From Gemmatimonadota bacterium (GTDB lineage Bacteria > Gemmatimonadota > Gemmatimonadetes > Longimicrobiales > RSA9), in NCBI GenBank assembly GCA_017881445.1, contig JADGQX010000012.1, positions 1 through 38,494 of the forward strand: DNA of 38,494 nucleotides, in the 5' to 3' direction. The notes under the pieces are model-generated. The model saw nothing but the letters and a program-made list of their open reading frames with translations, did no database searches and had not been told where the DNA came from. Positions 20,337-38,494 of this stretch are shown here, piece after piece. A program made the translations under genes and the position numbers. Numbering within the stretch: the stretch's first letter is position 1; each line of letters begins with the position of its first letter.

Positions 20337-20534
20337 CATCTCACGCAGAGCCGCAGAGCCGCAGAGAGGCGCGCGGCGGCCGAGGGCCGCCGGCGTTTCC
20401 TCGGACAACGACGCGGTCTCTGGATCATGTTGTTGTTAAACAACAAAACCCGGATTCCTGTCGCGCCGCGAGGCCGGCGCCGCCCGCGGACCGCGCCGGA
20501 CCGGCTGCAGTTCTCTGCGGCTCCGTGTGAGATG
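20337..20534. repeat. ~200-bp intergenic element with 22-bp terminal inverted repeats
   Basis: CATCTCACGCAGAGCCGCAGAG (20337-20358) versus CTCTGCGGCTCCGTGTGAGATG (20513-20534); 20/22 complementary. Confidence 0.65.
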
Positions 20535-20562
20535 CTGTTGTTGTTGCCGTTGTCGTTGACGG

Positions 20563-22032
20563 TCAGGCGCCCGGTGTCAGCTCGGCCGCTACGGCGGCCT
20601 GGACCACGGCGAGCAGGCGGTCGACGTCGGACTCGGTCGCCCGGGGGTTGACGACGCAGGCGCGCAGCCAGAAGCGGCCGCCCATCACGGTGCTGGACAG
20701 GAAAGCCTCGCCTCCGAGCTGGACGCGGGAGAGCACGGCGCGGTTCAACCGGTCCAGCGCTTCGCCATCGTCGCCCAGCGCGGGCGGCGCGGCGCGGAAG
20801 CACACGATGCTCAGCCCCTGGGGCTCCCAGAGCACGAGGGCGGGCGCCTGCCGCACGCCGGCGGCCAGCCGCCGCGCCAGGGCCATGTCGTGGGCCAGCA
20901 GCTCGCGGTAACCCTCCAGCCCGAAATAGCGCAGCGCCAGCCACACCTTGAGCGCGCGGAAGGGGCGGGTCTGCTCGGTGCCGAACTCGCTGAACCAGGG
21001 CGGGCCCTGGACGCCGTGCTCGTCGCCGTCGGTGCGCAGGTAGGGCGGTACCAGGCTGAAGGCGTCGCGCAGCCCGGCGGCGTCCTTCACCAGCACGAGC
21101 CCGGCGTCCACGGGGACGTACAGCCACTTGTGCGGGTCCAGCGCGACGCTGTCCGCCCGCGCCATGGGCGCCAGCTCCGGGCGCAGCTCCTCCAGCATCA
21201 CCGCCGGACCGCCGTACGCGCCATCCACGTGCAGCCAAACGTCGTGACGCGCGCAGACGTCGGCCAGCGCGTCCAGCGGATCGATCGCGCCGGTGTTCAC
21301 GCTGCCGGCGCTGGCCACCACCGCCACGGGCAGGCGGCCATCCGCCAGATCCTCCGCCAACATGGTGTCCAGGGCGTCCGCCCGCAGCCGCAGCCTCTCG
21401 TCTCCCGGCACGTGGCGGATGCTGGCGCTGCCCAGGCCCAGCAGCTCCACCGCCTTCTGGTGGCAGCCGTGCGCCTCGCTCCCCAGGTACACGGTCAGCC
21501 GCGGCGAGTCGCCGCGGCCCTGCAGGCCAGAGGCGCGCACGTCCCAGCCCACGTGGCCACAGGCCCGGTGGCGCGCCGCCGCCAGCGAGATCAGCGCCGC
21601 GGTGGACGTGCCGCTCACCAGCAGCCCCGCCGAGCCCTCCGGGAATCCCAGCAGCCGCCGGAACCAGCCCACGACCTCGTGCTCCAGGGCGACGGCGCCG
21701 TGGTTGCCGCCGGCCACGCTCGGGTTCATGGCCGCCGCGAGCGCGGCCCCGAAAACACCCACCACCGCCGGGGGCGAGTTCACCCAGCCGTAGAAACGCG
21801 GATGGCCATTGCCGAAGGGATAGGGCGCGATCTCCCGGGCGAACTCGTCCAGCAACGTGTCCACGGGCTGCCCCCGCTCCGGCAGGGCGCTCGACTGCGC
21901 CCGCGCCAGCCGGTCCGGCGGCAGCGGCCGGAACACGGGCTCGTCCGGCAGATTCGAGAGATGCTCGGCCACGAGGTCCGCCACGCGGTAGCCCACCCGC
22001 CGGATCTCTTCCGCCGTCCAGGTGAAGTCCAT
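20563..22032 (-). CDS. Pyridoxal-dependent (group II) amino-acid decarboxylase
   Basis: ARFYGWVNSPP-type N-term, LLVSGTSTAALISLAAAR, WLHVDGAYGG, SVALDPHKWLYVPVDAGLVLVKD (PLP Lys). Confidence 0.92.
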   Translation of the reverse strand: MDFTWTAEEIRRVGYRVADLVAEHLSNLPDEPVFRPLPPDRLARAQSSALPERGQPVDTLLDEFAREIAPYPFGNGHPRFYGWVNSPPAVVGVFGAALAAAMNPSVAGGNHGAVALEHEVVGWFRRLLGFPEGSAGLLVSGTSTAALISLAAARHRACGHVGWDVRASGLQGRGDSPRLTVYLGSEAHGCHQKAVELLGLGSASIRHVPGDERLRLRADALDTMLAEDLADGRLPVAVVASAGSVNTGAIDPLDALADVCARHDVWLHVDGAYGGPAVMLEELRPELAPMARADSVALDPHKWLYVPVDAGLVLVKDAAGLRDAFSLVPPYLRTDGDEHGVQGPPWFSEFGTEQTRPFRALKVWLALRYFGLEGYRELLAHDMALARRLAAGVRQAPALVLWEPQGLSIVCFRAAPPALGDDGEALDRLNRAVLSRVQLGGEAFLSSTVMGGRFWLRACVVNPRATESDVDRLLAVVQAAVAAELTPGA

Positions 22033-22115
22033 CTTCCACCTCCCCGCGGGACACCTCCCCGCTATCGATCGCAGGGATCCTAATGCGTGGAGGGGCGGAC
22101 CACCACAGACACGCG

Positions 22116-22185
22116 CAGACGCAGGCGCAGGCGCAGACGTTCACGGGAACGGGCCCGTAAACGTCTGCGCCTGCGCCTGCGTCTG
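22116..22185. repeat. Long perfect palindrome built of hexanucleotide repeats
   Basis: CAGACGCAGGCGCAGGCGCAGACGTT (22116-22141) ... AACGTCTGCGCCTGCGCCTGCGTCTG (22160-22185), 26-bp perfect stem; loop contains ACGGG...CCCGT. Confidence 0.9.
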
Positions 22186-22213
22186 TGTCGTGAATCTGCG
22201 GGGAGGTTTCCAG

Positions 22214-22846
22214 TCAGCCGGCGGTTTCCACCTCGAAGCGGCAGCGGGGGCGATCGCCGTGCTCGCAGAACTGGCGCACGGGCGCGTCCACGGCGCCCGC
22301 GAGCACGCCCTCCAGGAACGAGCAGACCCGCGGCTCCTCCGCCACCGCCGTCGCCAGCGGGCAGGCATGGCCGGTGATCACCACCTTCGTGCCCTCCCGC
22401 GTCATGTCCGCCTCGGCACCGATCGCCTCCATGAGCGGCAGCAGTCCGCCCAGCCGCTCCAGCGGACCCGCGCCCGTGACGCCCGCATTCGCGCCCGCCC
22501 GCCGACCGATCGCCCGCAGCGCGTCCGCGAGTGCGTCCTCGCCCAGCCGCTCCCGCAGCTCCCCCACCAGCTCGCTCACCATGAACGCGTACGCCTTCGG
22601 GAACAGCGACTCCGCCTCCACCGTCAGCCGGTAGACGTGCGCGGGCTTGCCGATCGCCCGCCGCACGCCCTCCTGCTCCACCAGCCCGTCCCGCTCCAGC
22701 CCCGCCAGGTGCGCGCGCACCGCGTTGTCCGTCAGACCGACTTCGTCCGCCAGCTCGTTTACGGTGCGGCTGCCCCGCCGCAGCAGCCCCACGATGCGGC
22801 CGCGCGTGCTCGCCAGGAACCGTTCGTTCCAGCGCGTTCGTGCCAT
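22214..22846 (-). CDS. ArsR/SufR-like winged-helix regulator with C-terminal Cys residues
   Basis: RIVGLLRRGSRTVNELADEVGLTDNAVRAHLAGLERDGLVEQEGVRRAIGKPAHVYRL; C-term GHACPLATAVAEEPRVCSFLEGVLAGAVDAPVRQFCEHGDRPRCRFEVE. Confidence 0.82.
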   Translation of the reverse strand: MARTRWNERFLASTRGRIVGLLRRGSRTVNELADEVGLTDNAVRAHLAGLERDGLVEQEGVRRAIGKPAHVYRLTVEAESLFPKAYAFMVSELVGELRERLGEDALADALRAIGRRAGANAGVTGAGPLERLGGLLPLMEAIGAEADMTREGTKVVITGHACPLATAVAEEPRVCSFLEGVLAGAVDAPVRQFCEHGDRPRCRFEVETAG

Positions 22847-23072
22847 TGTTTTCCTCCCGGGTATGCATGAAGGCTAGTGGCGGGCGGCCCCTTTGTCAAT
22901 TGTTTACTGAAGATTGTGCCGAAACCGCGGCCATTTCCACCATTTCACCATTGTTTATTTGACAAACTCCGGCCGGGGTGTCATGGTTCACGCGCGGCTG
23001 TCACTGGCGGCAGCGCGCGTAGCCGACCGGGGCGTCGGCGCGCTGCGAACCTCGAGGGGAGAACGGTGCTTC

Positions 23073-23654
23073 ATGGACAAGCGATTCGGGCGGGGCCTCA
23101 CGCTGGCGCTGCTGGCGCTACTGGGTGCGGGTGCGGGGGCGGGGGCGGGGGCGGGGCTGCGGGCGCAGGCTGCGGGCGCGACGAAGGCGGCGCCGGCGTT
23201 GTCGGACCCGCAGGTGGCGCACGTGGCGGTGACGGCGAACACGATCGACGTGGGCATGGGGAAGCTGGCGCTGGAGCGGGCGCGGGGCGCGGCGGTGCGC
23301 TCGTTCGCGCGGACGATGATCCGCGACCACACGGCGGTGAACGCGAAGGCGGGCGCGCTGGCGGCGCGCCTGCACGTCACGCCCCTGGACAACGACGTGA
23401 GCGCGAGCCTGCAGAAGTCGGCAGGCGAGGCGCGGGCGAAGCTGTCGACGCTGCGCGGTCGCGCCTTCGACCGGGCCTACATCGACCGGGAGGTGAGCTA
23501 CCACCAGGGCATGCTGGATGCGATCGACAAGGTGCTCATCCCGTCGGCGCAGAACGCCGAGCTGAAGCAGCTCCTGGTGGACGTGCGGCCGGCGATCGCG
23601 GAGCACCTGGCGCACGCCAGGCAGCTGCAGGCGCAGCTCGCGGGTGGGCGGTGA
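23073..23654 (+). CDS. Secreted DUF4142 protein
   Basis: Signal peptide MDKRFGRGLTLALLALLGAGAGAGAGAGLRAQAAG; TANTIDVGMGKLALERARGAAVRSFARTMIRDHTAVN. Confidence 0.88.
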   Translation: MDKRFGRGLTLALLALLGAGAGAGAGAGLRAQAAGATKAAPALSDPQVAHVAVTANTIDVGMGKLALERARGAAVRSFARTMIRDHTAVNAKAGALAARLHVTPLDNDVSASLQKSAGEARAKLSTLRGRAFDRAYIDREVSYHQGMLDAIDKVLIPSAQNAELKQLLVDVRPAIAEHLAHARQLQAQLAGGR

Positions 23655-23974
23655 CGGGGCCAGGCGCTCGCCGGCGCAGGTGGGCGCCGGCTCTGGCGCT
23701 GCTGGCGCTGGCGGCGTTCTCGCCGGCGCCGCGGCGCCACCTGGTACAGGTGCGGGGGATGCAGTACGCGCCGGCCGCGCTCGAGGTGGCGGCGGGCGAC
23801 ACGGTGGTGTGGCAGAACACGGACATCGTGCCGCACACGGTGACGTCGAAGGGCTGGAACTCGGGCCCGATCGCGGCCGGAGCGTCGTGGAAGAAGGTGA
23901 TGCGGGCGCGGGGCGTCGTCGCCTACCACTGCACGTTCCATCCGACGATGGTGGGGACGGTCACGGTGCGCTGA
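23651..23974 (+). CDS. Cupredoxin/plastocyanin-like copper protein
   Basis: GTG overlapping the DUF4142 TGA; MQYAPAALEVAAGDTVVWQNTDIVPHTVTSKGWNSGPIAAGASW...VVAYHCTFHPTMVGTVTV (His, Cys, His, Met ligands). Confidence 0.87.
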   Translation: MTGPGARRRRWAPALALLALAAFSPAPRRHLVQVRGMQYAPAALEVAAGDTVVWQNTDIVPHTVTSKGWNSGPIAAGASWKKVMRARGVVAYHCTFHPTMVGTVTVR

Positions 23975-23996
23975 CGGACGGCGTCGCCGGGCCCGC

Positions 23997-24025
23997 TTGA
24001 CAGGAATCGCGCGATAGGCAATCAT
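23997..24025 (+). promoter_or_regulatory. Sigma-70-type promoter upstream of the attenuator leader
   Basis: TTGACA (23997-24002), 17-nt spacer, AATCAT (24020-24025). Confidence 0.6.
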
Positions 24026-24032
24026 TTAGACC

Positions 24033-24122
24033 ATGATGACGAGCGCCACCCGCTATTACGCCTACGCCTTTACCTACGCGACCCGTTCCACGGGACGCGC
24101 GCGGAGGCGCAGGCACGCATAG
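24033..24122 (+). CDS. Tyrosine-rich attenuator leader peptide
   Basis: ATG ATG ACG AGC GCC ACC CGC TAT TAC GCC TAC GCC TTT ACC TAC GCG ACC CGT TCC ACG GGA ... TAG = [29 protein letters not shown]; 4 Tyr + 1 Phe in 8 codons. Confidence 0.8.
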
Positions 24123-24145
24123 CGGCGAGCCTCGCACAGACCGGG

Positions 24146-24182
24146 CGGCCCGTGGAGCGATCCACGGGCCGTTTTTCTTTTT
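24146..24182 (+). terminator. Intrinsic terminator (attenuator)
   Basis: CGGCCCGTGGA-GCGA-TCCACGGGCCG followed by TTTTTCTTTTT. Confidence 0.93.
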
Positions 24183-24202
24183 ACCCCCAGGGCAGGTGCC
24201 GC

Positions 24203-25243
24203 ATGATCATCGTCGTCAGGCCGGACGCGACCGAGGCGCAGCTGGACCACATCCGCGAGCGGGTGGAGGCACGCGGTCTGCGCACCCACGTCGTCAAGGG
24301 CGAGCAACGGGCGATCGTCGGCTGCGTGGGCGACGACTCTCTGCTGGGCGAGGCGGCTTTGCTGTCGCTGCCGGGCGTGGAGTCGGTGACGCCGCTGCTG
24401 AAGCCGTACAAGCTGGCGTCGCGGGAGTTCTCCTCGTCTCCGACCGTGATCCGGCTGGGCAAGTGGGCGACGGTGGGCGGCCCCTCGGTGCTGGTGATCG
24501 CGGGCCCCTGCGCCGTGGAGGGCAGGGAGATGCTGCTGGAGACGGCGGAGGCGGTCTCGGCGGCCGGTGCCGGTGCGCTGCGCGGGGGCGCGTTCAAGCC
24601 GCGGACCTCGCCTTACGTCTTCCAGGGGCTGGGCGTGGAGGCGCTGGAGTTGCTGGCGGAGGCCCGGGCGATCACGGGGCTGCCGGTGGTGACCGAGGTC
24701 ATGGACACGCGCCAGGTGGAGCTGGTGGCGGAGCATGCCGACGTGCTGCAGATCGGCGCGCGCAACATGCAGAACTACGCGCTGCTCTCGGAGGTCGGCA
24801 CGGTGCAGCGGCCGGTGCTGCTGAAGCGGGGGCTGTCGGCGACGCTGCAGGAGCTGCTGCTGGCGGCGGAGCACATCATGTCGCGCGGCAACCGGGACGT
24901 GATCCTGTGCGAGCGCGGGATCCGCACCTTCGAGACGGCGACGCGCAACACGCTGGACGTGGGCGCGATCCCCTGGCTCAAGTCCCAGACGCACCTGCCG
25001 GTGATCGTGGACCCGAGCCACGCGGCCGGGCGCGCGGACCTGGTGGCGCCGCTCGCCTACGCCGCCGTGGCCGCGGGGGCCGACGGGCTCATCGTCGAGG
25101 TGCACCCCCGTCCCGAGGAGGCGCTATCGGACGGCGACCAGTCGCTGACGTTCGACGCGTTCGCCGACATGATGGCGCACCTGAACCTGTTCGCCCGCGC
25201 CGCCGGTCGCACGGTCGGCCGCACGCTGGAGAGTGTCGCATGA
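24203..25243 (+). CDS. aroF: 3-deoxy-7-phosphoheptulonate (DAHP) synthase
   Basis: [44 protein letters not shown]...[21 protein letters not shown]...[17 protein letters not shown]...[47 protein letters not shown]. Confidence 0.93.
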
Positions 25244-25620
25244 CCGACCTGACGACGCGGCTCCTGGACCGCACGCGCGCCAGCGCCTGCACCATCACGC
25301 CCCTGGAGAGCGACCGCATGACCACACCCGCCCGCCCACCGGCCGACCCCCGCCGTGACCTGGCCGCGCTGCGCCAGGAGATCGAGTCGGTGGACGCCCG
25401 CATCGTACAACTCATCGCCGAGCGCACGGCGCTGGCGCACCGCATCGGCGAGGTCAAGCGCGCGGCCGGCCAGCCCATGCTCGACCCCGCGCGGGAGGCC
25501 GCCGTAGTGCGCCGGGCCGGGCTCCTGGCCCGCGACGCCGGCGTCGCCCAGGAGGACGTGCGCGAGATCTTCTGGCACCTCATCGGCCTCTCCCGCCGGG
25601 CGCAGGAAGGCAAGAGCTGA
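25240..25620 (+). CDS. AroQ-class chorismate mutase
   Basis: [57 protein letters not shown] overlap with aroF; alternative start at 25318. Confidence 0.88.
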
Positions 25621-26525
25621 TGGCGGGCGCGCCCGCCAACCCCGACTTTGCCCCCAGCGGCGCCCCGGCCCGGGCCGCCGCCCCGCACACGGCCGCCGTG
25701 ATCGGCCTCGGCCTCATCGGGGGCTCCATCGCCCGGGACCTGGCCGCGGCGGGCGTGCGCGTGCTGGGCTGCGACCGCGACGACTCCACGCTGGAGGCGG
25801 CCATTGCCTCCGGCGTGGTAGCGGACTCGCTGGGCCCCCCGGTCGGGCCCGCCTGGGGCGGCGTAGCCGAGGCCGACTGGGTGATCCTGGCGGTGCCGGT
25901 GGACGCGGCCCCGGCGCTGCTGCTGTCACTGGCGCCCGCCCTGGGTGGCGCCCAGCTCGTCACCGACGTGGGCAGCACCAAGTCCGCCATCACGGCGGCG
26001 GCCGAGGGGCTGGGTCTGGGCCCGCGCTTCGTGGGCTCGCACCCCTTTGCCGGCGACCACCGCTCCGGCTGGGCGGCGTCCGCCGCCGGCCTCTTCCGCG
26101 GCGCCCGCGCCTACCTGACTCCCTGCCCTTCCACGGGCGACGTCGCCCTGCACGCCGCCCGCCGGCTCTGGGGCCTGTGCGGGGCCACGGTCGAGCTGAT
26201 CGACGCTGCCGCGCACGACCGGCTGATGGCCTGGGCCAGCCACCTGCCGCAGGTCGCCTCCAGCGCGCTGGCGCTGGCGCTGGCCGATGCGGGCATCCCC
26301 CCCGCCGCCCTCGGCCGCGGCGGCCACGATGCCACGCGCCTCGCCGCCGGCTCGCCCGAGGTGTGGACCGGGATCGCGCTGGAGAACGCGGCGGAGCTGG
26401 CGGTGGCGCTGGAGGCGTTGGAGGGACGGCTGGGCGAGTTGCGCGAGGCGCTCAAGCGGCGAGACGCGGCGGCAATTCACGCGCTGCTTGCAGCCGCGAC
26501 TGCGTGGTCGGGGGAAGGCGGGTGA
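25620..26525 (+). CDS. tyrA: Prephenate dehydrogenase
   Basis: AAVIGLGLIGGSIARDLAAAGVRVLGCDRD...VTDVGSTKSAI...FVGSHPFAGDHRSGWAAS; overlaps preceding stop. Confidence 0.9.
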   Translation: MAGAPANPDFAPSGAPARAAAPHTAAVIGLGLIGGSIARDLAAAGVRVLGCDRDDSTLEAAIASGVVADSLGPPVGPAWGGVAEADWVILAVPVDAAPALLLSLAPALGGAQLVTDVGSTKSAITAAAEGLGLGPRFVGSHPFAGDHRSGWAASAAGLFRGARAYLTPCPSTGDVALHAARRLWGLCGATVELIDAAAHDRLMAWASHLPQVASSALALALADAGIPPAALGRGGHDATRLAAGSPEVWTGIALENAAELAVALEALEGRLGELREALKRRDAAAIHALLAAATAWSGEGG

Positions 26526-26598
26526 GGCGGGTCGGGAGCGCAAGGCTCCCGGAGGTTCTCGCCAGGATCAGCCGAGCACGCGCCCGGGGTGCCGGTCT

Positions 26599-26943
26599 TC
26601 AGGCGCTCCTGCGTCGCGCCGAAACCACCCGGAGCGTGGCCTGGTTGCGGGCGCGCGGCTTGGGCCGCACGACGATCTCGACGTCGTTGCCCAGAGCGTT
26701 GAGGAAGCGCGTGAGGCGCTCAATGGAGTAGCCGGACACCTTCCCGCGCACCAGCGCCGACACCTTCGGCTGATCCAGCCCGAGGATCTCGGCCGCCTGA
26801 GCCTGCGTGAGTCCGCGATCCTCGATGGTACGGCTGATCTGAAACGCCAGATCCGTCTTCGCCAGCAGCTGCTCGGCGTTCGGAAGGCCGAGGTCCGCGA
26901 AGATGTTGTCACTCCCGACCTTGTACTCAAGCTCGTCGCTCAC
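26599..26943 (-). CDS. XRE family HTH protein (HigA-like)
   Basis: VSDELEYKVGSDNIFADLGLPNAEQLLAKTDLAFQISRTIEDRGLTQAQAAEILGLDQPKVSALVRGKVSGYSIERLTRFLNALGNDVEIVV; RBS ggaggaagg before GTG. Confidence 0.85.
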   Translation of the reverse strand: MSDELEYKVGSDNIFADLGLPNAEQLLAKTDLAFQISRTIEDRGLTQAQAAEILGLDQPKVSALVRGKVSGYSIERLTRFLNALGNDVEIVVRPKPRARNQATLRVVSARRRSA

Positions 26944-27052
26944 CTTCCTCCTCCTCGGTCGTTTCGCAATATGCCCGGATCTGGCATGTTTGTCCAGCCC
27001 TGTCGCCTCCAGTTTGGAGGTGCGCCGAGCTCCCGCAGTGAAGACTCTGGGG

Positions 27053-27322
27053 TCAGGCTGCGCGAAGTGGTCGCAGATCGGACGGCGACGGTCGGCCGAG
27101 GCCCAGCTCGTCAAAGGCGCGATTGATCTCGTCCACCGTCACCTCGCACGGGGAGACGATCTCGATTCCGAGCGCCGACCCATCCGCAGCGTAATCGACG
27201 AGGAGGTCCGGGCCGATCTCGCGTGTCCGCACGCTCTTCTGACCCGGCCTTGCGGCAAGGTAGATACACGCGGCGAAGGGCTTGCCCTTGCGATAGGTCA
27301 CCTGAATCGAGAAGGCGCTCAT
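27053..27322 (-). CDS. DUF2283-like protein
   Basis: MSAFSIQVTYRKGKPFAACIYLAARPGQKSVRTREIGPDLLVDYAADGSALGIEIVSPCEVTVDEINRAFDELGL. Confidence 0.75.
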   Translation of the reverse strand: MSAFSIQVTYRKGKPFAACIYLAARPGQKSVRTREIGPDLLVDYAADGSALGIEIVSPCEVTVDEINRAFDELGLGRPSPSDLRPLRAA

Positions 27323-27783
27323 GGCAGGTGCGCGCCGGCGTCGCCTGCTCCGAACCACTCGGCGCGCGGAAAGGTCCGTACCAGCCCCAGCAGGTACACC
27401 GCCGCCGCGCCCAGCAGCAGCGGCTTCGTCCCCACCAGCAGGAAGAACACGCCGGCGAGGAGGGCCGGCGCCTCCACCAGCGCCCACGCGATGACCAGGC
27501 TGCCCTGCACCTGGCCCAGCGTCGCCGGCGAGGGAGGCCTGGCCGCGTCGCCCTCGATCGCCCGCAGCGCCCGCCCGCGGAACGCGAGCGAGCCCGCGAC
27601 CCCCGCCAGCGCCGCCGCTGCCCAGATGTAGAGCGCCGCCCCTGGCGAGAATGCCCGCGGCGAGAGCCCGGTCTCCCCCCCGTTCGTCAGGAACCACCCG
27701 ATCGCCCAGAAGAGCACCACGCCCGCCGGCATGGCGGCCGCGATCATGCGCGCCGTGCGGAGTGCCACCTGGCTCTGCTCCAT
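27319..27783 (-). CDS. Hypothetical membrane protein (about four hydrophobic segments)
   Basis: MEQSQVALRTARMIAAAMPAGVVLFWAIGWFL...ALYIWAAAALAGVAGSLAF...LVIAWALVEAPALLAGVFFLLVG; stop overlaps the DUF2283 ATG. Confidence 0.75.
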   Translation of the reverse strand: MEQSQVALRTARMIAAAMPAGVVLFWAIGWFLTNGGETGLSPRAFSPGAALYIWAAAALAGVAGSLAFRGRALRAIEGDAARPPSPATLGQVQGSLVIAWALVEAPALLAGVFFLLVGTKPLLLGAAAVYLLGLVRTFPRAEWFGAGDAGAHLP

Positions 27784-27820
27784 CGGTCCTCCTCGTCGGG
27801 GGTTAGGCGCGTCGCGGACG

Positions 27821-28690
27821 TCAGGTCCCGCGTTCCGCCGGATCGAAGCGGTAGTCGACGACGTCGCACACCGGCTCGTAGCCGATGCGCCGATAGATGG
27901 AGTTCGACGTCGGGTTGGAAAGGTCCGTGTAGAGGAAGCAGAAACGTCGCCCGGCGTCCAGGATCCGTCGGCTCAGCGCCGCCACGCACGCCGACGCGTA
28001 CCCTCGCCCGCGCCACTCCGGCGGCGTGTACACGTAGCCGACGCGGCTCCCGTTCGGCGTGTCTCCGCTCGACGCCGCCATCGAGCGCGCGCCCTGGTCG
28101 TCCCAGAGCAGGATCCGCCCGCCCGCCACCAGCTCGCGTGTCCGCTCCTCGTTCGCCGCCACGCCCGCTTCCGCGCTGAACGCGGCCACCCACGAGGCGA
28201 CGGTGCCCAGGTCGGCGTCCGTCGCCGGCCGCGCGATCCCGGGCGCCGGACGCTCCGGCGCGATCACTCGCTCGAGCTGGTAGATCCGCTCCCGCATCGC
28301 GGGGCGCCCCTCCCGGACGACGACGCCCCGCAGCTCGCTCCACGCCTCCGCCAGCGCCGCCGCCTCCGGATCCGGCCCCAGCACGCCGCGCAACTCCTCG
28401 TACACGCCCGCCACGTCCCGCGCCAGCGGCCGCGCCACCTCCGCCGGCAGTCGCGTGATCAGCAGGTTGAACGGCGGCGTCCGGAACGCGCACCCCAGGA
28501 TCTCGCGCCCCCGCTCGATGGTGGCGAGGTAGATCGGCGGCTCGAACCCGACGCTGGACTTCTCCAGCCGCGCCGCCAGGGCGAGCATGAGGTTGTGCTC
28601 CGCCTCGCGCTCCAGCAGCCACGCGTCCGCCCGCCGGCGGAACGCGCCGAGGGAGGCGTGGCGGTGGATGAGGACGGGGGCGGTCGTCAT
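27821..28690 (-). CDS. GNAT family N-acetyltransferase
   Basis: VGYVYTPPEWRGRGYASACVAALSRRILDAGRRFCFLYTDLSNPTSNSIYRRIGYEPVCDVVDYRF. Confidence 0.88.
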   Translation of the reverse strand: MTTAPVLIHRHASLGAFRRRADAWLLEREAEHNLMLALAARLEKSSVGFEPPIYLATIERGREILGCAFRTPPFNLLITRLPAEVARPLARDVAGVYEELRGVLGPDPEAAALAEAWSELRGVVVREGRPAMRERIYQLERVIAPERPAPGIARPATDADLGTVASWVAAFSAEAGVAANEERTRELVAGGRILLWDDQGARSMAASSGDTPNGSRVGYVYTPPEWRGRGYASACVAALSRRILDAGRRFCFLYTDLSNPTSNSIYRRIGYEPVCDVVDYRFDPAERGT

Positions 28691-28734
28691 CGGCAGGGCG
28701 CAAGGGCAGATAGTCGCAGGGAGCCGGCTACGTA

Positions 28735-28790
28735 GCTCGGCGCAGCCGAGCGCAGCGGGTGTCCCCGCTGGGACAAGGGCGCGCAGCGCC
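28735..28790. repeat. Three tandem intergenic hairpins
   Basis: GCTCGGC-GCA-GCCGAGC (28735-28751), CAGCGGG-TGTC-CCCGCTG (28753-28770), GGCGC-GCA-GCGCC (28778-28790). Confidence 0.75.
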
Positions 28791-28824
28791 AGCACAGTGA
28801 ACGTGATCCACGCTGTTGTTCGTT

Positions 28825-29952
28825 TCAATCAACTTCCTGATCCACCGCCTTTAGCAGATGCTGCTCATAGGCGGAGAGCCAGAACGTACCGAGATGGTCC
28901 TTTGCTTCCATCTGCCGGGTCCATTTCCAGTGCCGCTGCAGATAGGCAAGCAGCGCCGTCCGGTAAACAGTTGAGGCTAACGCGAGAAGCGGCGGCGCTG
29001 GGTCAGGCCCGAAGGGCCGCAGCAGGGCCCGCGAAACCTGGTCTCCGTGGACGAACTTACTTCGAGCTTCGTAGAGGTGATCGTAGACCTTGGCGACCAG
29101 CTTCGCGCCGCGGTACTTGATCTTTGGGCGACGATGCTCAACGACCCGGTATCTCCTGGAGTCCAGCAGCGGGTTCATGTCCCAGACGAACTGCTCGACA
29201 AGAGCATGGCCGTCAAGGCGCCGAACGTTTCGATCTGACGGGGCTGCAAGGATCTCGATCGCGTTCACCCAGAGAACGGTTCCGACGCCGACCTCGTGGA
29301 TCGAACTGTAGTTCCTGGACCTCATGGACGCAGCCATGTACGCTAGTTCGAGCGACCGGAAGAGCGTCCTCCCTGCCGCGACGTTCCGGCCATTTCGATA
29401 GGTGTCGAGCCACGCCTTCCCGAGCCAGACTGCGAGTCTCTCATCTGAGAAAATGTACTCGGCTACGGGCAGGCCATGCTCGAGCGTGAACACCATGTCT
29501 TCAACGGGAGCGGCGAAGCTCTGCAGCGCTGGAGTCAGGATGTCTACGTGTGATCCGTCCACTGCCACTTCAGCGGCATGATGATCGAACGATTCCGTCC
29601 AACTAGCCCCCTGCCAACCTCCGTTCGCCCGCACGTGGCATACACATGCCATCGCAACGGCATTGCGAAACGCAATCACTGGCTCGGCCCTTTTGCCGAA
29701 GCTGTCCAGCCAACGGCGGTGCGCCACCAATAGCGTCGGATCATGCGGACGTGAGTACTCGGTCAGGAACCGGCTGAGCAGTGTTGAGGCCGCTGGTGAC
29801 CACTCGCAGTAGGCTTGCACACGCGGATCATCGCGGGCCACCAACGCCATACCGGTCAGGCCGAGGGTCAGGCCAACGTCGTTCACTGCCTGGGCCTTGA
29901 TTTTCAGGCTTGGAATGATGAACACAACGATCCAATCGGGCCTGGTCATCAA
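28825..29952 (-). CDS. Hypothetical protein with C-terminal Apea-like HEPN motif
   Basis: MMTRPDWIVVFIIPSLKIKAQAV... with VYDHLYEARSKFVHGDQVSRALL (RxxxxH) near the C-terminus; codon usage visibly less GC-biased than neighbours. Confidence 0.65.
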   Translation of the reverse strand: MMTRPDWIVVFIIPSLKIKAQAVNDVGLTLGLTGMALVARDDPRVQAYCEWSPAASTLLSRFLTEYSRPHDPTLLVAHRRWLDSFGKRAEPVIAFRNAVAMACVCHVRANGGWQGASWTESFDHHAAEVAVDGSHVDILTPALQSFAAPVEDMVFTLEHGLPVAEYIFSDERLAVWLGKAWLDTYRNGRNVAAGRTLFRSLELAYMAASMRSRNYSSIHEVGVGTVLWVNAIEILAAPSDRNVRRLDGHALVEQFVWDMNPLLDSRRYRVVEHRRPKIKYRGAKLVAKVYDHLYEARSKFVHGDQVSRALLRPFGPDPAPPLLALASTVYRTALLAYLQRHWKWTRQMEAKDHLGTFWLSAYEQHLLKAVDQEVD

Positions 29953-30028
29953 CGCCCCATTGCCAGGGGACCAAATGGCGCCTGAGGTTCCAGGTGTTCA
30001 CTGCACCCCGGAGCCGCGCGTCAGCGTG

Positions 30029-30063
30029 GCGCAGCGGGTGTCCGCGAAGCGGCCAGCGGCCGC
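30029..30063. repeat. Structured extragenic repeat sharing GCGCAGCGGGTGTCC with 28750-28764
   Basis: Exact 15-mer at 30029-30043; adjacent hairpin GCGGCC-AGC-GGCCGC (30049-30063). Confidence 0.7.
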
Positions 30064-30149
30064 AGGTCGCGCAGCGTGAGCGCTCGTGTCAGGCGCTGCG
30101 GGGGCGTCTCCTGCCCACGGCCAGTCGTGCCTGCGTTACCTGGCAACGC

Positions 30150-30446
30150 CTACTGATCCGGACGCGCGCGCGGGGAAATCAGGTACATCCGTACCGCGCT
30201 CGCGAGGATGGCGGCCAGGGCAGCCCCCAGCACGAGCACGTTGTGTACGATCAGGTCTCCATCCGCGAAACGAGCGCCCCGAAATAGCCAGAAGACCCGG
30301 GTGGCGGCCGGCTGCAGCGCGAGAACGATTACGCCCCCGAGGATCGCAACCTCATACTGAGAATACTTGCTGCCCCATGCGCCCATTGCGCCCTCTTCGT
30401 CGAGAGAAACAGCCGTCTCAGCTATCGCGCCAATATGCAGCCCCAT
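30150..30446 (-). CDS. Small predicted membrane protein (two hydrophobic segments)
   Basis: YEVAILGGVIVLALQPAATRVFWLF and LIVHNVLVLGAALAAILASAVRMYLI. Confidence 0.45.
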   Translation of the reverse strand: MGLHIGAIAETAVSLDEEGAMGAWGSKYSQYEVAILGGVIVLALQPAATRVFWLFRGARFADGDLIVHNVLVLGAALAAILASAVRMYLISPRARPDQ

Positions 30447-30570
30447 GCACCTGGTAACCTATACCTGCACTGCGCGACACGTAACCAAGGTGTACGCGAC
30501 CGGGCCGAACTGTCCCCGCAGGGGGGCGCCGCATTGGCCCAGGCTCACCGGCCGCGCGACCGGCCAGCCC

Positions 30571-31035
30571 TCACCTCGTCCGCCCACCCGTGTATGCGTC
30601 CACCACCGTCCGCTCCATGTGCCTGTCAGGGTGGGCCATGGGCGCATAGCCGACCCGGGCGTACAGCGGGTGGGCGTCGCGGGTGGCCAGGGACCAGCGG
30701 CGCAGGCCCTGGAGGTCGGGGTGGCGGTCGATGGCGTCGAGGAGCCAGCGGGCAAGGCCGCGGCGGCGGTAGGGCTCGAGGACGAAGACGTCGCAGAGCC
30801 AGGCGAAGGTGGCGCGGTCGGAGACGACGCGGGCGAAGGCGACCTGGGCAGGGCCGTCGAAGATGCCGAAGCAGAGGGAGTTGGCGAGCGAGCGGGCGAC
30901 GAGGTCGAGGGGGATGCCGCGCGCCCAGTAGGACTCCTGGGAGAGGTAGCGATGTATGGCGCTCACGTCCATGCGCGCCGGGTCCGACGTCAGCGTCAGG
31001 TCGCCGCGGGACTCCTCGATGTTGGGTTGGGACAC
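30571..31035 (-). CDS. GNAT family N-acetyltransferase
   Basis: GTG start, SQPNIEESRGDLTLTSDPARMDVSAIHRYLSQESYWARGI...FAWLCDVFVLEPYRRRGLARWLLDAI...YARVGYAPM. Confidence 0.88.
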   Translation of the reverse strand: MSQPNIEESRGDLTLTSDPARMDVSAIHRYLSQESYWARGIPLDLVARSLANSLCFGIFDGPAQVAFARVVSDRATFAWLCDVFVLEPYRRRGLARWLLDAIDRHPDLQGLRRWSLATRDAHPLYARVGYAPMAHPDRHMERTVVDAYTGGRTR

Positions 31036-31073
31036 GGCTCCTCCTGGGCGTTTCGGGACGCGGCGCCGGCGGG

Positions 31074-31438
31074 TCAGACGCGCTCCCCCCCCGGCTCGTA
31101 CCCCTTCCCCACCTCGCACCACCTCCCTCTTCGGTACCCGCAGTCCCTGCACTTCGGCCCGGCCTCAGTCCGGTAGTCCCCCGAGCCGATGCGCGCGACC
31201 GCGTCGCGGGCGGCGGCGAGCGCGCGCTCCAGCACGGGCGCGCTGACGTCCACCTCCTGCACGTGCCCCGGCTCCAGGAAGACCAGCCGGCCGCTGGCCA
31301 CCGTTCCGGACGCCGCGGCCCGCGCCGCGGCATGGAGCTGGACCCTGGACCTGGGGCGCGTACTGCTCGACCAGGGTGCGTAGCCGCTGGGCGTCGTGGA
31401 TGGCATTGGTCTTCCAGTCCACGATGTGCCAGGCGCCG
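31074..31438 (-). pseudogene. Truncated, frameshifted duplicate of the 3' end of the AddA-like gene
   Basis: Aligns to 35185-35542 with no gaps except a 7-bp tandem duplication (CTGGACC x2 at 31338-31351); about 39 mismatches over 358 bp by hand count. Encodes AWHIVDWKTNAIHD in one frame and ...AAARAAASGTVASGRLVFLEPGHVQEVDVSAPVLERALAAARDAVARIGSGDYRTEAGPKCRDCGYRRGRWCEVGKG in another. Confidence 0.92.
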
Positions 31439-31486
31439 CTCCAGGGCGGTTGGTTACAGCCGTCTACTTCAGTTCCACGGGCGTCC

Positions 31487-34400
31487 TCACGGAGCTCGCC
31501 TGGTGTACTGGTTGGGCGCACCGGGCGTGGGCACGCTGCCGGCGACCTGGGCGCCGCTGTCATGCGTCCGGGTCAAAGCAGTGGTCAGGGTGATGCCGCT
31601 GCCCGAGACCTGTGCGCCGGCCTCGTGCGCACTGGTGAGCGGCGCGGCGACGGTGATCGTGGCGCCGCCCGGGGCGCCGCCAAAGCCGCCAAAGCCTCTG
31701 CGGATCGCGATGGAGGCGATGACCGCCGTCTCCTGGTTCGCGCCGCTGCCGATGGTGATCGTCTGCCCGGAGTTGAAGCCCATCGCGCCGGCGACAGGGA
31801 TAGCCGTCGCGCCCACGCTGGTGGCGGTGTCCACCGTGGAGGCGCCTGGCGTGCCAACCGTCGCGATGACGGCGGTCTCGAGGTTCGCGCCCGGGTCGAT
31901 CAGGATCTTCTGGCCGGCGGCGAAGTCCGCCACGCTGGAGACCTTGATATTGTTCGCGCCGACGGCCGCAGCGGCCGACAGGGAGGCGGCGGCCTGCAAC
32001 AGGAAGTCGGTGCAGTTGCTGTCGGTGTCGAGGCCGTCCGGGAAGCGGCCCGCGCTCCGGTTGGGCGCGGCCGCGGCCGGCCCGCCTCGCCCGCCGAATC
32101 CGAAGCCTCCCCTGCCCGCGCCGGGCGCAGGTACGCTGCAGCCGCTGCGCCCTGCTCCGGAGGTCGCCTGGTCGCCCTCGGCGGCCCATGGGTCGACGAG
32201 GCCGCCGTAGTTGAGGCCGTCGACGACCCGGCCCGCCGCGTCACGCAGCACCATGTTGCCGGCGCCGCCGAGGGCGGGGCCCCCGAACCAACGGTTTGGC
32301 ACCGGCGTCCCTGGGTAGCCCGCGGTCGTGACCTTGGCGTCACGCACGACCGCGTCGATCGGGTGGTCCATGGCCAGGGGCTGGTCCAGCGTGATGCCGG
32401 TACCGAGCGGCTGGACGGGCTCGTTGCTCGAGTGGGTAAAGGCCGTCGCCGGCTGGAAGCTGATCCCGGTTCCCCGGGCGCTGAAGGGGATGTTGGCCGC
32501 ATGGTTGAACCGCAGCGGGGCGGCCAGGCCGAGGCCCGTACCGTGAGCGACCACATCCTCGCGGTCGAGATGCGCCCTGGCGAGGGCCGGCGTGAAATCG
32601 ACGCCGGTGCCGCTGGGACTTGAGGCGCCGACGGCGGTGATCGTGACCGTTTCCAGGTTGGCGGGGGTGCCGACGCTCATCTTGTCGCCCACGGTGAAGC
32701 CGGTCAGGTTGCCGCGCGCCCGCAGGGCGATCCTGGTCGCGCCGGCGCTCGCATTGGCCGAAAGCGTCGCACGGCCGGCCTGCGTGCCCACACTCGCGAC
32801 CGTGACGGTCTCGATGCCGTGGCCGACGCTGGCAATGTCCAGCCGGATCCTGTCGCCGACCGAGATGTTGGCGACCGATGTCACCTTGATGTTGCTGTCG
32901 CCCGCTTTTGCGTCCACCGCCAGCCAGGCCTGCGTGCCCGGCTTGCCGACCGCGGTGACCGTGACCACCTCGTATCTCTCCACGGACTTCGCGACGGTGG
33001 GGTAGGTGGCGCCGTGGCCGATGCCCATCTTCTGGCCCACTTCGAACCCGGCCACGCTCGCGACCGGCACGTTGGTCGAGCCGGCCGGGATCGTGATCAC
33101 CGGACCGTCGGGGAGCGGCTGCCACACCGTCGTCGTGCTGGCTGCGCCTGGACGACCTCCGCCGAACGGCGACTCGGGCGCCCCGGACGCCGCCGCCGTG
33201 CCGAGCTTCGCGATCCTGCGGGTTTCCAGGGCCGCGCCCGTGCCGATCTCGATCGCATCGCCGACCGACATGTCGGTCGTGCTCCTGACGTGAATGGCGG
33301 CGTCACCCTTGTGCGCGGGAACCGCCAGCCCGGAGTTGGACAGGCCGAGCAGGTAGAAGCCACGAGCCGCGAGCTTCGTCCCCGCCGGGATCTTCACCGA
33401 CGAGAAGATCGCCTGCTGGGTCGGATGCTGGGTCAGGGTCCAGCCCGAGATGTCGACGGCACTGCCGCCGGCGTTGTAGAGCTCGATGAACGAGTCCGTC
33501 GAGTTGTTGGGAGACCCGGCGCTGACGCGGAACTCGTTGATCTTGACCGGCTGGACGTTCCGCACCTTTTCGGTCGTCGTTTCGGATCGGCTCTGGCCGC
33601 CCCTCGCGCTCGTCCAGGAGACGTTGCCGACCAGGTCGCCGTTGAAGGCCGCCGGTCCCGACGTGACCTTGAAGGGCGCGCTCACGCTGGCGCCCGGCGC
33701 GACCGGGCTGGCGAACGTCTTCGACGAGCCGGTGGAGCCTGCGACCACGGAGGTCCAGCCCGCGGGCACGGAAATGCTCAACCGGACGCCCGTCGCGGGC
33801 GCCCCCGTTGTATTCGTGAAGGTCACGGTGCTGTTCTGCGAGGAGCCCGGCGAGAACGTCTGCAGTCCCGGCGGGGTGGCCGTCGCCGACGCCGGCGCCA
33901 GGGTCAGGCGCGCCACGTCGTACCCGGCGGCCACGACATTGGCCTGGATCCGCTGGTTGGTCTCCTGCGTCGGGAAGGTGCCCGCGGCCGTCATCGCGCC
34001 TTCATAGAAGGTGCCCTGGGAACCGTTGCTGTTGTCGCCGCCGTTGCCCAGGAGGATCGCCCCCTGCTTGCGCATCGGGTCATAGGTGTGGTCGACGCGC
34101 GGGCCGTCGAACATGATCGACAGGCCGCCCTTCTGCGCATCGCCGCCCATGGATCTCCAGTGGTGCGCTTCGCCGTCGGCCGTGGCAGTCACGAAGCGCC
34201 AGGTGATGTTCGGCAGCTGTGCGCAGAGCTTGGAGCCGTCCGGGTTGACACAGCCCACCAGGTTGTTCTCCTGGTCGGTCATGATCCACGGGCCGGGCGG
34301 GTTGCCGTGATACCAGACCCCGATATTGCCGAAGAACGTGGTCTCCATGGTGCCGTTACCGTCATCGCGGCTGTCGGTCTCGGCGTTGCCGTAGTCGTAG

Positions 34401-35008
34401 CAGCAGCCAGAATTGTAGTGATGGCCGCTGACGACCCAGTACTGCCCCTCCGCCTGGTCGTCCACAGCGGTGCCCTTCGCATCATTCCAGCGCAGCCCCA
34501 TGCCCGGCTCGATGAAGACGCCGTAGGCCTTGTGGCCCATGATCGTGATCGGTGCCATGTCGGCGATCGGGACGTTGTTGAACCCACCCATGGCCGGGCC
34601 GCTGAATCCGCCGCGAGGCGCCTGGACGAGGTGGTTGCCCCGGCCGGACTGGTCGTAGATGGTCGTGATCCAGCAGTACGTGTGGGCGCAGAAAGCGTCC
34701 TGCGCGGCCGCGTCCGCGTATCCGCCCGCATCCGGCACCAGCGCCGCCACGGGCTGGACCACGCCGATGTCCCGGGTCTTGCCGTCCGATTGACGCATGA
34801 CCTGGTAGAGCGGGCCGTTGTAGGAGGCGTACAGCGCGCGCGTCGTGCTGTGGGCGGCCGTGCAGGGCGTGCCCGCTGCGGCGTAGATGTCGCACGGGCC
34901 CTGCGGCCGGGGCGGAGCCGTCCCGGCCGGTGCGGCCATCGTCAACGTGCCGGCTATCAGCGTGAGAGCCAGTGCGAGCATCGACACGATCGCGCTCCTC
35001 GTTTTCAT
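31487..35008 (-). CDS. Secreted GH54 alpha-L-arabinofuranosidase with NEW3-like, lamin-tail and surface-repeat modules
   Basis: Signal peptide; GPCDIYAAAGTPCTAAHSTTRALYASYNGPLYQVMRQSDGKTRDI...TIYDQSGRGNHLVQAP...GCCYDYGNAETDS...ILLGNGGDNSNGSQGTFYEGAMT; then VTFTNTTGAPATGVRLSISVPAGW; then VKINEFRVSAG...DSFIELYNAGGSAVDISGWTL; then repeats with VGDxIxIGxGAxxET. Confidence 0.87.
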   Translation of the reverse strand: MKTRSAIVSMLALALTLIAGTLTMAAPAGTAPPRPQGPCDIYAAAGTPCTAAHSTTRALYASYNGPLYQVMRQSDGKTRDIGVVQPVAALVPDAGGYADAAAQDAFCAHTYCWITTIYDQSGRGNHLVQAPRGGFSGPAMGGFNNVPIADMAPITIMGHKAYGVFIEPGMGLRWNDAKGTAVDDQAEGQYWVVSGHHYNSGCCYDYGNAETDSRDDGNGTMETTFFGNIGVWYHGNPPGPWIMTDQENNLVGCVNPDGSKLCAQLPNITWRFVTATADGEAHHWRSMGGDAQKGGLSIMFDGPRVDHTYDPMRKQGAILLGNGGDNSNGSQGTFYEGAMTAAGTFPTQETNQRIQANVVAAGYDVARLTLAPASATATPPGLQTFSPGSSQNSTVTFTNTTGAPATGVRLSISVPAGWTSVVAGSTGSSKTFASPVAPGASVSAPFKVTSGPAAFNGDLVGNVSWTSARGGQSRSETTTEKVRNVQPVKINEFRVSAGSPNNSTDSFIELYNAGGSAVDISGWTLTQHPTQQAIFSSVKIPAGTKLAARGFYLLGLSNSGLAVPAHKGDAAIHVRSTTDMSVGDAIEIGTGAALETRRIAKLGTAAASGAPESPFGGGRPGAASTTTVWQPLPDGPVITIPAGSTNVPVASVAGFEVGQKMGIGHGATYPTVAKSVERYEVVTVTAVGKPGTQAWLAVDAKAGDSNIKVTSVANISVGDRIRLDIASVGHGIETVTVASVGTQAGRATLSANASAGATRIALRARGNLTGFTVGDKMSVGTPANLETVTITAVGASSPSGTGVDFTPALARAHLDREDVVAHGTGLGLAAPLRFNHAANIPFSARGTGISFQPATAFTHSSNEPVQPLGTGITLDQPLAMDHPIDAVVRDAKVTTAGYPGTPVPNRWFGGPALGGAGNMVLRDAAGRVVDGLNYGGLVDPWAAEGDQATSGAGRSGCSVPAPGAGRGGFGFGGRGGPAAAAPNRSAGRFPDGLDTDSNCTDFLLQAAASLSAAAAVGANNIKVSSVADFAAGQKILIDPGANLETAVIATVGTPGASTVDTATSVGATAIPVAGAMGFNSGQTITIGSGANQETAVIASIAIRRGFGGFGGAPGGATITVAAPLTSAHEAGAQVSGSGITLTTALTRTHDSGAQVAGSVPTPGAPNQYTRRAP

Positions 35009-35184
35009 GGTTGTCCTGTTAGCCTTGCCGTGGCCCTAACGTGCGGTGCGGCGGGGCAGGAGGCAACGCCGCCGCAGGACATGGAAAACAGGTTGGGACT
35101 GACAAGCCTCCCGGATCTGCCCTGCCGTGCGCCATGTAACAACATGTACGGGACCGGCCTGAGCTGCTCCCGGGCGGGAACGGG

Positions 35185-38100
35185 TCAGGTCCTCTCCGAC
35201 CCCGGCTCGAACCCCTTCCCCACCTCGCACCACCTCCCCCTTCGGTACCCGCAGTCCCGGCACTTCGGGCCGGCCTCGGTGCGGTAGTCGCCGGCGCCGA
35301 TGCGGGCTACCGCGTCGCGGGCCGCGGCCAGCGCGCGCTCCAGCACGGGCGCGCTGACGTCCACCTCCTGCACGTGGCCCGGCTCCAGGAAGACGAGCCG
35401 GCCGCTGGCCACGGTGCCGGAGGCGGCGGCCCGGGCGGCGGCGTAGAGCTGGACCTGGGGCGCGTACTGTTGGACCAGGGTGCGCAGGCGTGAGTCGTCG
35501 TGGATGGCGTTGGTCTTCCAGTCGACGATGTGCCAGGCGCCGGTCTCGTCCTGGAAGGCCAGGTCCACGATGCCGTGCAGGACGGTCCGGGCGCCGCCGG
35601 GCAATGCCAGCGGCACGTAGAAGGCCACCTCTCGCAGGAGCGTGCCCCCGGCCGCGCGGATCTCGGCGGCCAGTGGTGAGCGCAGCGCCCGGCCGATCAT
35701 GGCGACGGCGGCGGCCGGGATCCCGGGCATCTGCGCCTGTAGCCGGTCCAGCTCGGCCGCGGGGTCGGCGCGGAAGTCGGCGCGGGCGAGCGCCTCGTGC
35801 ACCAGGTTGCCCAGGTCGGCAGCGCCGCTCGCCGCGCCGGCGGCGGGCGCCCGCGCCGGGAACTCGGGCAGCCCCAGCTCCGAGAAGCGGTAGACCAGGG
35901 GGCAGCGGATGAACCCGGTCAGGCGGGTGATCGCGATCTGCGCCACGGCGGGCTGGGCGATGACCAGCGGCCGGACGGCGGCGTCGAAGCCCGAGGGCGC
36001 GCCGTCGCCGATCGGGCGGCCGGCGGCCAAAGCGCGCCGGTGCAGCTCGAGCAGCGAGCGGCTGCGGTCGGCCAGGCGCGGTGACGGGTCCACCTCGCGT
36101 ACCCATTCGACCCGGACCACGGCCTCGCCCCAGGGCTTCTCCTCGACGCCGGTCCCCAGGGCGGCACCGATCTCGAGCTGGCAACGGATCCAGGGCAGCG
36201 GCCTGTGCTTCCACTCGCCCGCAGCCGCGCCCGCGCCGGCGATGCCCGAGAGGACGAGCAGCTCGCGGGCGCGCGTCGTCGCCACGTAGAGCAGGCGCTT
36301 GCCCTCCTCGGAGGCGCGCCTGGCCATCTCCTCCCGCGCCTGGCGCGCCAGCAGCGGCCGGTACCAGTCGCCGTCGCGGGCCACGGCCAGGAAGGGCGTG
36401 CCGTCCGGGCCCACGCCCGAGGCGTCGGGCGAGCGCCAGTAGTCGGCGAACAGGTCCGCCACGAAGACGACGGGCCACTCCAGCCCCTTGGCGCGGTGCA
36501 CGGTGGTGATGGTGACCGCGGGCTCGCCCGGCTCGGCCAGCGGCGCCTCGGGGTTGTCCTGCAGGTAGCGGGCGACGCGCCGGGCCCGCAGCAGGAACGC
36601 GCGCAGCGTCATGGGCCCGGAGGCGCGCGCCAGCGCGACCAGGCGCTGCACGTTGGCCGCGCGGGCGCGCCCGTGGTCGTCGGCGAAAACCCGGGCGCCG
36701 TAGTCGGTGCGCTCGATCAGGCGGCGCAGCAGCGAGTCAGGCGAGGCGGCGTCGCGGTCGTGGCGCAGGGCGTCCACGGTGGCCAGGAAGCGGTCCAGCC
36801 GCTGGCGAGCAGCAGGCGCCAGCGACGCCGCGCGCAGCACCGGCCAGTAGGGCTTCTTCGAGGAGGCCCGGGCGATGCGCAGCGCGACCAGGGCGTCGTC
36901 GTCCAGCCCGCAGAGCGGCGAGCGCAGCGCGGACAGCAGCGCCAGGTCGTCCAGCGGGTTCTCGACGACGGCCAGGCCGTTGAGCAGGTCCTTCACCTCG
37001 AGGCCGTCGAAGAAACCCGTGCCGCCCACGGTCACGAAGGGGATGCCGCAGTCGCGGAAGACCCGCTGCAGCGCCTCCACCGTGGCGCCGCGCACGCTGC
37101 GCAGCAGCACGGCCGCGTCGCCCCAGTGGAACGGCCGCGTGGCCTTCGACTCGGGGTCGAACACCGGGACCCGCTCATCCGCCAGGCGCTGCAGCCGCTG
37201 TGCGATCCAGCGCGCCTCCCGCTCCCGGGCCTGGTCGGCGGGCTCGCTGCGGTCGGCGTCGTCCGGGTCAGGCCGCTGCTCGACCACGCAGCACTCGACC
37301 CGCGCCAGCCCCTCGGCGGCCGGCGGGTAGGGCAGCTCCGCCCGCAGGGGAGCGGCGCGCAGGAGCGCGTCCTCCCGCCAGAGCACCTCGCCGGCGGCGT
37401 TCACCGCCGCCAGCACCTCCGCGCGCGAGCGGAAGTTCTGCTCCAGCCCCGTGGTGTTGCCGCCGGCGGCCCCGGTGATGTCCCGGAACAGCTCGACGTC
37501 GCAGCCGCGGAAACCGTAGATGGCCTGGCGGGCGTCGCCCACCACGAAGAAGGTGCTGTCCCCGTCGTCCCCCCAGAGCCGCTCCCGCAGGATGCGGTAC
37601 TGCAGGGGGTTGGTGTCCTGGGCCTCGTCCAGCAGGATCTCGGCGAACTGGCGGCGGTAGTGCTCCAGCACGGTAGGCCGCTGCAGCAGCGCCAGCGCGC
37701 GCAGCTGCAGGTCCTCGTAGTCGAACAGGCGACGCGCCGCCTTGTGCGCCTCGTACTCCCGCCACAGCCGGGCGGCCCAGCGCTGCACCAGGGCGACCCG
37801 GCGAGCCGACTCCGCCTCGGCCGCACGGTCCGCCTCCAGGTCGCGCCTGCGGAAGTCGTCCGCGATGAGCCGGGCCGGCTCCAGCCGCTCCTTCCACTCG
37901 TCCTTTTCCGGCCCACGGAAGTGGGCGTAGAAGCCGATGCACTGCCAGAGCTCGGTCGCCGTCGCCGGGTCCCACTGCGGGTCCTCCGGCTGCAGCGAGG
38001 CGACCAGCCGGCACAGCTGCGCGTAGCGCTGCCCCGACACGCCCCCGACATACTCCGGCGTCGTGAGGCCGGCGACGTCGCCCAGCAGCTCCAGCATCCT

Positions 38101-38494
38101 GGCCCAGCGCTCGGCGGCCCAGGCGTCGAAGGCGGCGGCGGCCGACGCCGCGGCGCCGGCGGGCGTCTCCGCCTCCAGCTCCTCGGGCGTGCCGCCCCGC
38201 TCGCGCGTCTTCTCGACCACGGCCGCGACCAGCTCGAAGAGCGCCCGGGCGTCCGGCTCCTGGCCCTGGCCGTATTCCGTGTCCAGGGGCGCGAACTCCG
38301 GGTCGTCGCAGAGCAGCTCCAGGGCGTCGTCGAAGAAGAGCGCCCGCTCCACGTCGTCGATGATGCCGAAGCCGGGGTCCACGCCCGCTTCCACGGCCCA
38401 CTCCCGCAGCATGCGGGCGCAGAAGCCGTGGATGGTGGAGATGTGGGCGACTTCGGCGTCCCGGCGAGCCTGGTCCATCCCCAGCAGGCGGAAC
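35185..38494 (-). CDS. AddA/UvrD-like helicase with C-terminal PD-(D/E)XK nuclease (partial, 5' end outside window)
   Basis: ISTIHGFCARMLREWA, EILLDEAQDTNPLQYRIL, VVGDARQAIYGFRGCD, TTVHRAKGLEWPVVFV, WHIVDWKTNAIHD; Cys at FIRCPLVYRF and KCRDCGYRRGRWCE. Confidence 0.92.
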   Translation of the reverse strand, partial: FRLLGMDQARRDAEVAHISTIHGFCARMLREWAVEAGVDPGFGIIDDVERALFFDDALELLCDDPEFAPLDTEYGQGQEPDARALFELVAAVVEKTRERGGTPEELEAETPAGAAASAAAAFDAWAAERWARMLELLGDVAGLTTPEYVGGVSGQRYAQLCRLVASLQPEDPQWDPATATELWQCIGFYAHFRGPEKDEWKERLEPARLIADDFRRRDLEADRAAEAESARRVALVQRWAARLWREYEAHKAARRLFDYEDLQLRALALLQRPTVLEHYRRQFAEILLDEAQDTNPLQYRILRERLWGDDGDSTFFVVGDARQAIYGFRGCDVELFRDITGAAGGNTTGLEQNFRSRAEVLAAVNAAGEVLWREDALLRAAPLRAELPYPPAAEGLARVECCVVEQRPDPDDADRSEPADQAREREARWIAQRLQRLADERVPVFDPESKATRPFHWGDAAVLLRSVRGATVEALQRVFRDCGIPFVTVGGTGFFDGLEVKDLLNGLAVVENPLDDLALLSALRSPLCGLDDDALVALRIARASSKKPYWPVLRAASLAPAARQRLDRFLATVDALRHDRDAASPDSLLRRLIERTDYGARVFADDHGRARAANVQRLVALARASGPMTLRAFLLRARRVARYLQDNPEAPLAEPGEPAVTITTVHRAKGLEWPVVFVADLFADYWRSPDASGVGPDGTPFLAVARDGDWYRPLLARQAREEMARRASEEGKRLLYVATTRARELLVLSGIAGAGAAAGEWKHRPLPWIRCQLEIGAALGTGVEEKPWGEAVVRVEWVREVDPSPRLADRSRSLLELHRRALAAGRPIGDGAPSGFDAAVRPLVIAQPAVAQIAITRLTGFIRCPLVYRFSELGLPEFPARAPAAGAASGAADLGNLVHEALARADFRADPAAELDRLQAQMPGIPAAAVAMIGRALRSPLAAEIRAAGGTLLREVAFYVPLALPGGARTVLHGIVDLAFQDETGAWHIVDWKTNAIHDDSRLRTLVQQYAPQVQLYAAARAAASGTVASGRLVFLEPGHVQEVDVSAPVLERALAAARDAVARIGAGDYRTEAGPKCRDCGYRRGRWCEVGKGFEPGSERT

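Follow-up and report, generated by a model that had tools for sequence, protein, structure and literature searches.

Diverged direct repeats of the addA 3' end around a GH54 gene in a Gemmatimonadota bacterium: a probable scar of homologous recombination between related lineages

How does a single metabolic gene come to lie between two copies of the end of a DNA-repair gene? The question is raised by contig JADGQX010000012.1 of a Gemmatimonadota bacterium (assembly GCA_017881445.1), on which a gene for a GH54-type alpha-L-arabinofuranosidase is bordered on one side by addA, a helicase-nuclease gene, and on the other by a broken second copy of the 3' end of addA (Table 1). The window analysed here is the entire contig of 38,494 bases, and addA runs past its edge, which leaves the first part of the gene and the neighbour upstream out of view. 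The best explanation, with a probability of roughly 0.6, is that two diverged forms of this locus recombined by a RecA-type homologous mechanism and left a scar.

Table 1. Coordinates of the features of the locus in the window.
Feature	Position	Strand	Basis
Element X', homolog of X, far side of GNAT	30465..30516	.	alignment
GNAT acetyltransferase	30571..31035	-	Pfam PF13508, PF00583
Distal repeat copy: addA 3' remnant, 5'-truncated, frameshifted (pseudogene)	31074..31441	-	repeat detection, alignment
Frameshift of the remnant: 7-bp tandem duplication, CTGGACC twice on the + strand	31338..31351	-	alignment and sequence
Novel junction: 45-nt spacer from GH54 stop to remnant start	31442..31486	.	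addA homology ends at 31441/35545
GH54-type alpha-L-arabinofuranosidase with lamin-tail and NEW3 domains, 1173 aa	31487..35008	-	Pfam PF09206 (404.6 bits), PF00932, PF10633
Element X, intergenic, 13-68 nt past the stop of intact addA	35117..35171	.	homologous to 30465-30516
Proximal repeat copy: 3' 361 nt of intact addA	35185..35545	-	repeat detection and alignment
addA helicase-nuclease subunit, 5' end cut by contig end, frame of 1102 codons	35185..38494	-	Pfam UvrD-helicase, UvrD_C, PDDEXK_1

The sequence-only reading of this DNA had proposed that the addA 3' end is repeated in the same orientation on both sides of GH54, and this was confirmed by repeat search and self-comparison. The two copies differ by 40 mismatches over 361 bp and by the single 7-bp tandem duplication in the distal copy, and both are terminated by the stop codon (TGA on the minus strand); the earlier counts, 39 mismatches and five changes in 89 residues after the frameshift, agree with ours within counting. 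In the self-comparison, 31070-31441 against 35181-35545 is the strongest repeat of the whole contig (372 nt, 87.4% identity including the gap, E 2e-130), and the longest direct repeat within 27000-38494 consists of segments of 275 nt and 97 nt, each 89% identical and offset by 7 nt. Mismatches are spread along the full 361 bp, and the longest identical run, 47 nt, lies inside the coding region. The spacer between remnant and GH54 shows no homology with the sequence downstream of other GH54 genes. Direct repeats of a segment of a resident gene around inserted DNA are expected of a single-crossover footprint, and they are present here.

The identity of both genes rests on their domains. UvrD/Rep helicase domains and a C-terminal PD-(D/E)XK nuclease in a single chain mark the flanking gene as AddA (by Pfam, with the 5' end beyond the contig), while the match to the NCBIfam equivalog TIGR02785 (addA) reaches 295 bits, below its cut-off. 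The last residues of the nuclease domain read CxxCGYRRGRWC; an RCP motif lies upstream, there is a weak Cas4 match, and the AddA C-terminus may bear an iron-sulfur cluster, a feature that is usual in AddB rather than AddA. The GH54 assignment follows from a match to the PF09206 catalytic domain over positions 1-314 of 315, and the N-terminus of the protein resembles a signal peptide. GH54 is the sole recognisable gene in the interval between the repeat copies, and the long antisense frames there have no Pfam match.

Are the two copies a gene and its debris, or the descendants of two genes? Judged from the pattern of their differences, they most likely evolved separately as working genes, with truncation coming late. 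Mismatches fall 8, 6 and 26 times on codon positions 1, 2 and 3, and only nine residues are replaced in 120 codons; the codon-aware estimates (dN 0.051, dS 0.371, dN/dS 0.14) bear out the earlier proposal that both copies diverged while functional. There are 27 synonymous and 13 replacement differences, transversions (29) exceed transitions (11), and half of the differences (20/40) are C/G exchanges, mostly at third positions, as expected of functional genes in a GC-rich genome. The scarcity of replacements rejects a local duplicate that was already truncated when it arose: in such a fragment about 59% of the changes should be replacements, against the 13/40 observed (P 6.5e-4 or less, site-count test), and no more than about 14% of the divergence can be put down to neutral decay. 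A simulation that kept the observed change spectrum also rejected fully neutral divergence (0/3000 runs); its half-neutral case gave 0.295 when all other changes were taken as synonymous, a deliberately generous setting with little power, and the rejection of truncation at birth rests mainly on the site-count test rather than on this simulation. Therefore, most of the divergence dates from the time when both copies were functional, and a recent local duplication is disfavoured, as the sequence-only reading had held.

The direction of change points the same way. When the replacements were polarised with an orphan addA end from another genome of the same order (G147) as outgroup, the intact copy and the remnant each proved to carry some of them, which is the pattern of two independently evolving genes; the remnant has lost the tyrosine of the QxxxY nuclease motif. 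By codon likelihood the intact copy is the more host-like of the two, although a decaying remnant would score worse too. Of the two readings of the copies, as xenologs or as old paralogs, the former is the more likely.

Homology extends past addA itself. Element X, just downstream of intact addA, recurs as X' past the GNAT gene with about 75% identity over 55 bp, and its alignment score of 38 stands against maxima of 30 in 1000 dinucleotide-preserving shuffles and 28 in 104 contig windows; no third copy was seen in the contig or in the other loci compared. The divergence of X and X', about 25%, is of the same order as the dS of the addA copies. Because X recurs beyond GNAT, the sequences on either side of GH54 appear to be alternative forms of a single locus, addA-X-GH54 and addA-GNAT-X', between which GNAT is an indel. 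A weaker alternative is that X and X' are a regulatory motif common to the upstream regions of two genes; the element contains a small imperfect palindrome. Translation of GNAT probably begins with GTG at 31035, preceded by an AGGAGG Shine-Dalgarno sequence, 38 nt past the remnant stop on the same strand, and this arrangement fits its being the old neighbour: it was probably the original downstream neighbour of the remnant's addA copy. Homologs of GNAT elsewhere in the class lack an adjacent addA. Two minus-strand frames next to GNAT, 28825-29952 and 30150-30446, have a third-position GC of 0.71 compared with about 0.90 and no Pfam match, and are possibly foreign genes. Farther on, 26599-27114 (minus strand) holds a gene of the HTH_37 type (HigA-like antitoxin), which weakly matches the PADLOC candidate PDC-M64C.

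From these observations we infer an origin of the two locus versions in two lineages and a crossover between them. Starting from addA-X-GH54 and addA-GNAT-X', a donor fragment from a related lineage, with GH54 and the 3' end of an addA on it, would have joined the resident chromosome through addA homology, with one crossover within addA and the other end joined without homology at 31442-31486. The outcome would be a full-length addA, then GH54, then a dead 361-bp addA remnant still followed by GNAT, its former neighbour. Two routes may lead there: either the fragment circularises and then integrates by a single (Campbell-type) crossover, or it enters by homology-facilitated illegitimate recombination, with one homologous and one illegitimate junction, and takes the place of resident DNA. 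With a single crossover, a mosaic switch is expected within the repeat; with the illegitimate route, a pure donor copy next to GH54. A search for such a switch found no point in the repeat where the polarity of codon differences changes once for all. The closest full-length addA among the genomes compared has about 37% amino acid identity, and these genomes showed neither an empty site nor an arrangement like that of the donor.

Both routes have precedents. The geometry, as had been suggested from the sequence, fits single-crossover integration: among 60 analysed recombinants in Escherichia coli, 56 had a gene-end duplication, which measured 109-950 bp in the 14 that were sequenced (PMC3240628). 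Campbell-type integration of a circularised fragment, as in that study, and the present locus share a direct repeat of a few hundred bp of a gene end around the insert, an insert that lacks a recombinase, and a non-homologous junction at the truncated copy; in contrast, the case described here is natural, its copies are 11% diverged and its crossover point is not resolvable. Homology-facilitated illegitimate recombination in Streptococcus pneumoniae, Acinetobacter baylyi and Pseudomonas stutzeri likewise combines one homologous with one illegitimate junction, and with the illegitimate end located in resident addA, a 3' remnant of the resident gene would be left behind. Its usual product is an insertion together with a similar-sized deletion of resident DNA, and 3-10 bp of microhomology is expected at the illegitimate junction. 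A literature search for natural cases of this geometry found nothing useful. The mechanism looks ordinary, and not like a new kind of mobile element.

If this recombination between related lineages took place, the locus is a readable natural case of a single metabolic gene entering a chromosome by plain homology, with no mobile element; its entry site adjoins a DNA-repair gene, and the relative age of the scar can be estimated. It would also caution that a gene fragment beside a full copy is not necessarily a recent local duplication. Known principles remain unchanged.

The main rival keeps the whole history within one lineage. A full-length addA, or addA with X, would have been duplicated long ago, both copies would have stayed functional, and a recent deletion would have removed the 5' part of the distal one, GH54 lying in between. 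The tandem orientation agrees with such a duplication, the selection pattern needs only two functional copies and not two lineages, and X and X' would simply belong to the duplicated unit. On the other hand, two functional addA copies would have had to remain side by side until dS reached 0.37, and the class genomes with the same addA type (G317, G320 and G399) show a single full-length copy each. We regard this history as possible, while falling well short of probable. A chimera of two strains or species, joined by the assembler at 31442-31486, is unlikely. The draft assembly comprises 420 contigs with 3.98% estimated contamination, and the 89% identity of the copies is typical of congeners sharing one sample. 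Yet the window contains no N, and the assembly has a single rpoB and, elsewhere, no near-duplicate of 12000-31060 (19 kb), addA, GH54 or GNAT. The frameshift in the remnant is expected of a dead copy, and the longest word common to the copies, 47 nt, is inside the repeat and away from the junction, so a graph assembler would have had no word to switch on there.

The earlier reading had also offered an integrative element that inserts specifically at the 3' end of addA while restoring the gene, its cargo here being GH54; this alternative was not supported. An order of full gene, cargo and 3' remnant is what such an element would leave, and G147, from the same order, also carries an orphan addA 3' end. 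The same arrangement of an intact gene on one side and a 3' remnant on the other is known from genomic islands and ICEs inserted at the 3' termini of genes; they restore the gene and encode an integrase, and their att cores are short and nearly identical. Here, by contrast, neither integrase nor att core is present. The interval contains only GH54, no integrase, transposase or other recombinase was recognised on either strand, and the long repeat is 11% diverged over its entire length, 40 mismatches in 361 bp being unlike the core of a site-specific crossover. No tRNA and no viral-contig relative were found, and the G147 remnant has no intact addA beside it in its genome. A site-specific element is disfavoured because of the missing recombinase together with the long diverged repeat, and we consider it extremely improbable.

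The distribution of this addA type is patchy: full-length relatives (33-37% amino acid identity) turned up only in the three class genomes named above, all from another family, and no close relative of this addA was found in other genomes of the window's own family. The genus is represented in the comparison set by the source genome alone, and a DNA search matched only itself. In G147, the orphan end lies at L077 (G147:C362) 1780-2231 on the plus strand; it is 5'-truncated, with 124 codons in frame, about 50% amino acid identity to the window AddA and apparent frameshifts further upstream. No helicase part was found upstream of it, nor a full-length addA of the same type in that genome. A match to the addA end in G145 was dropped as a further orphan, as it appears to sit at a contig end. 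Orphan addA ends occur elsewhere too, yet two cases do not make a pattern. Across the class, repeated gain and loss of a patchy addA might leave orphan ends, as at this locus and in G147, on which unrelated cargo genes could later land by homology without a recombinase, making the addA 3' end a recurrent anchor for recombination; this is a long shot. Searches for AddA found none in viral contigs and only partial, distant UvrD-type matches in plasmids.

Outside the source genome and G011, of the same family, no GH54 turned up in the order, ten further genomes of the family included, and this absence makes it an accessory gene. Among viral contigs the search returned no GH54, and among plasmids only distant relatives. 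The same genome has a second GH54 gene, on contig C111, with 70% amino acid identity to the window copy, and G011 has two, at 71-74%. A recent duplication of the C111 gene did not give rise to the window gene: the C111 gene has a nearer relative in one of the G011 genes (82%). Beside the C111 and G011 genes neither addA-like sequence nor a shared flank was found, and these loci do not lie between comparable repeats, with one exception: at L073 (G011:C397), a 62-bp direct repeat with 81% identity (7193-7254 and 9385-9446) ends just upstream of GH54.
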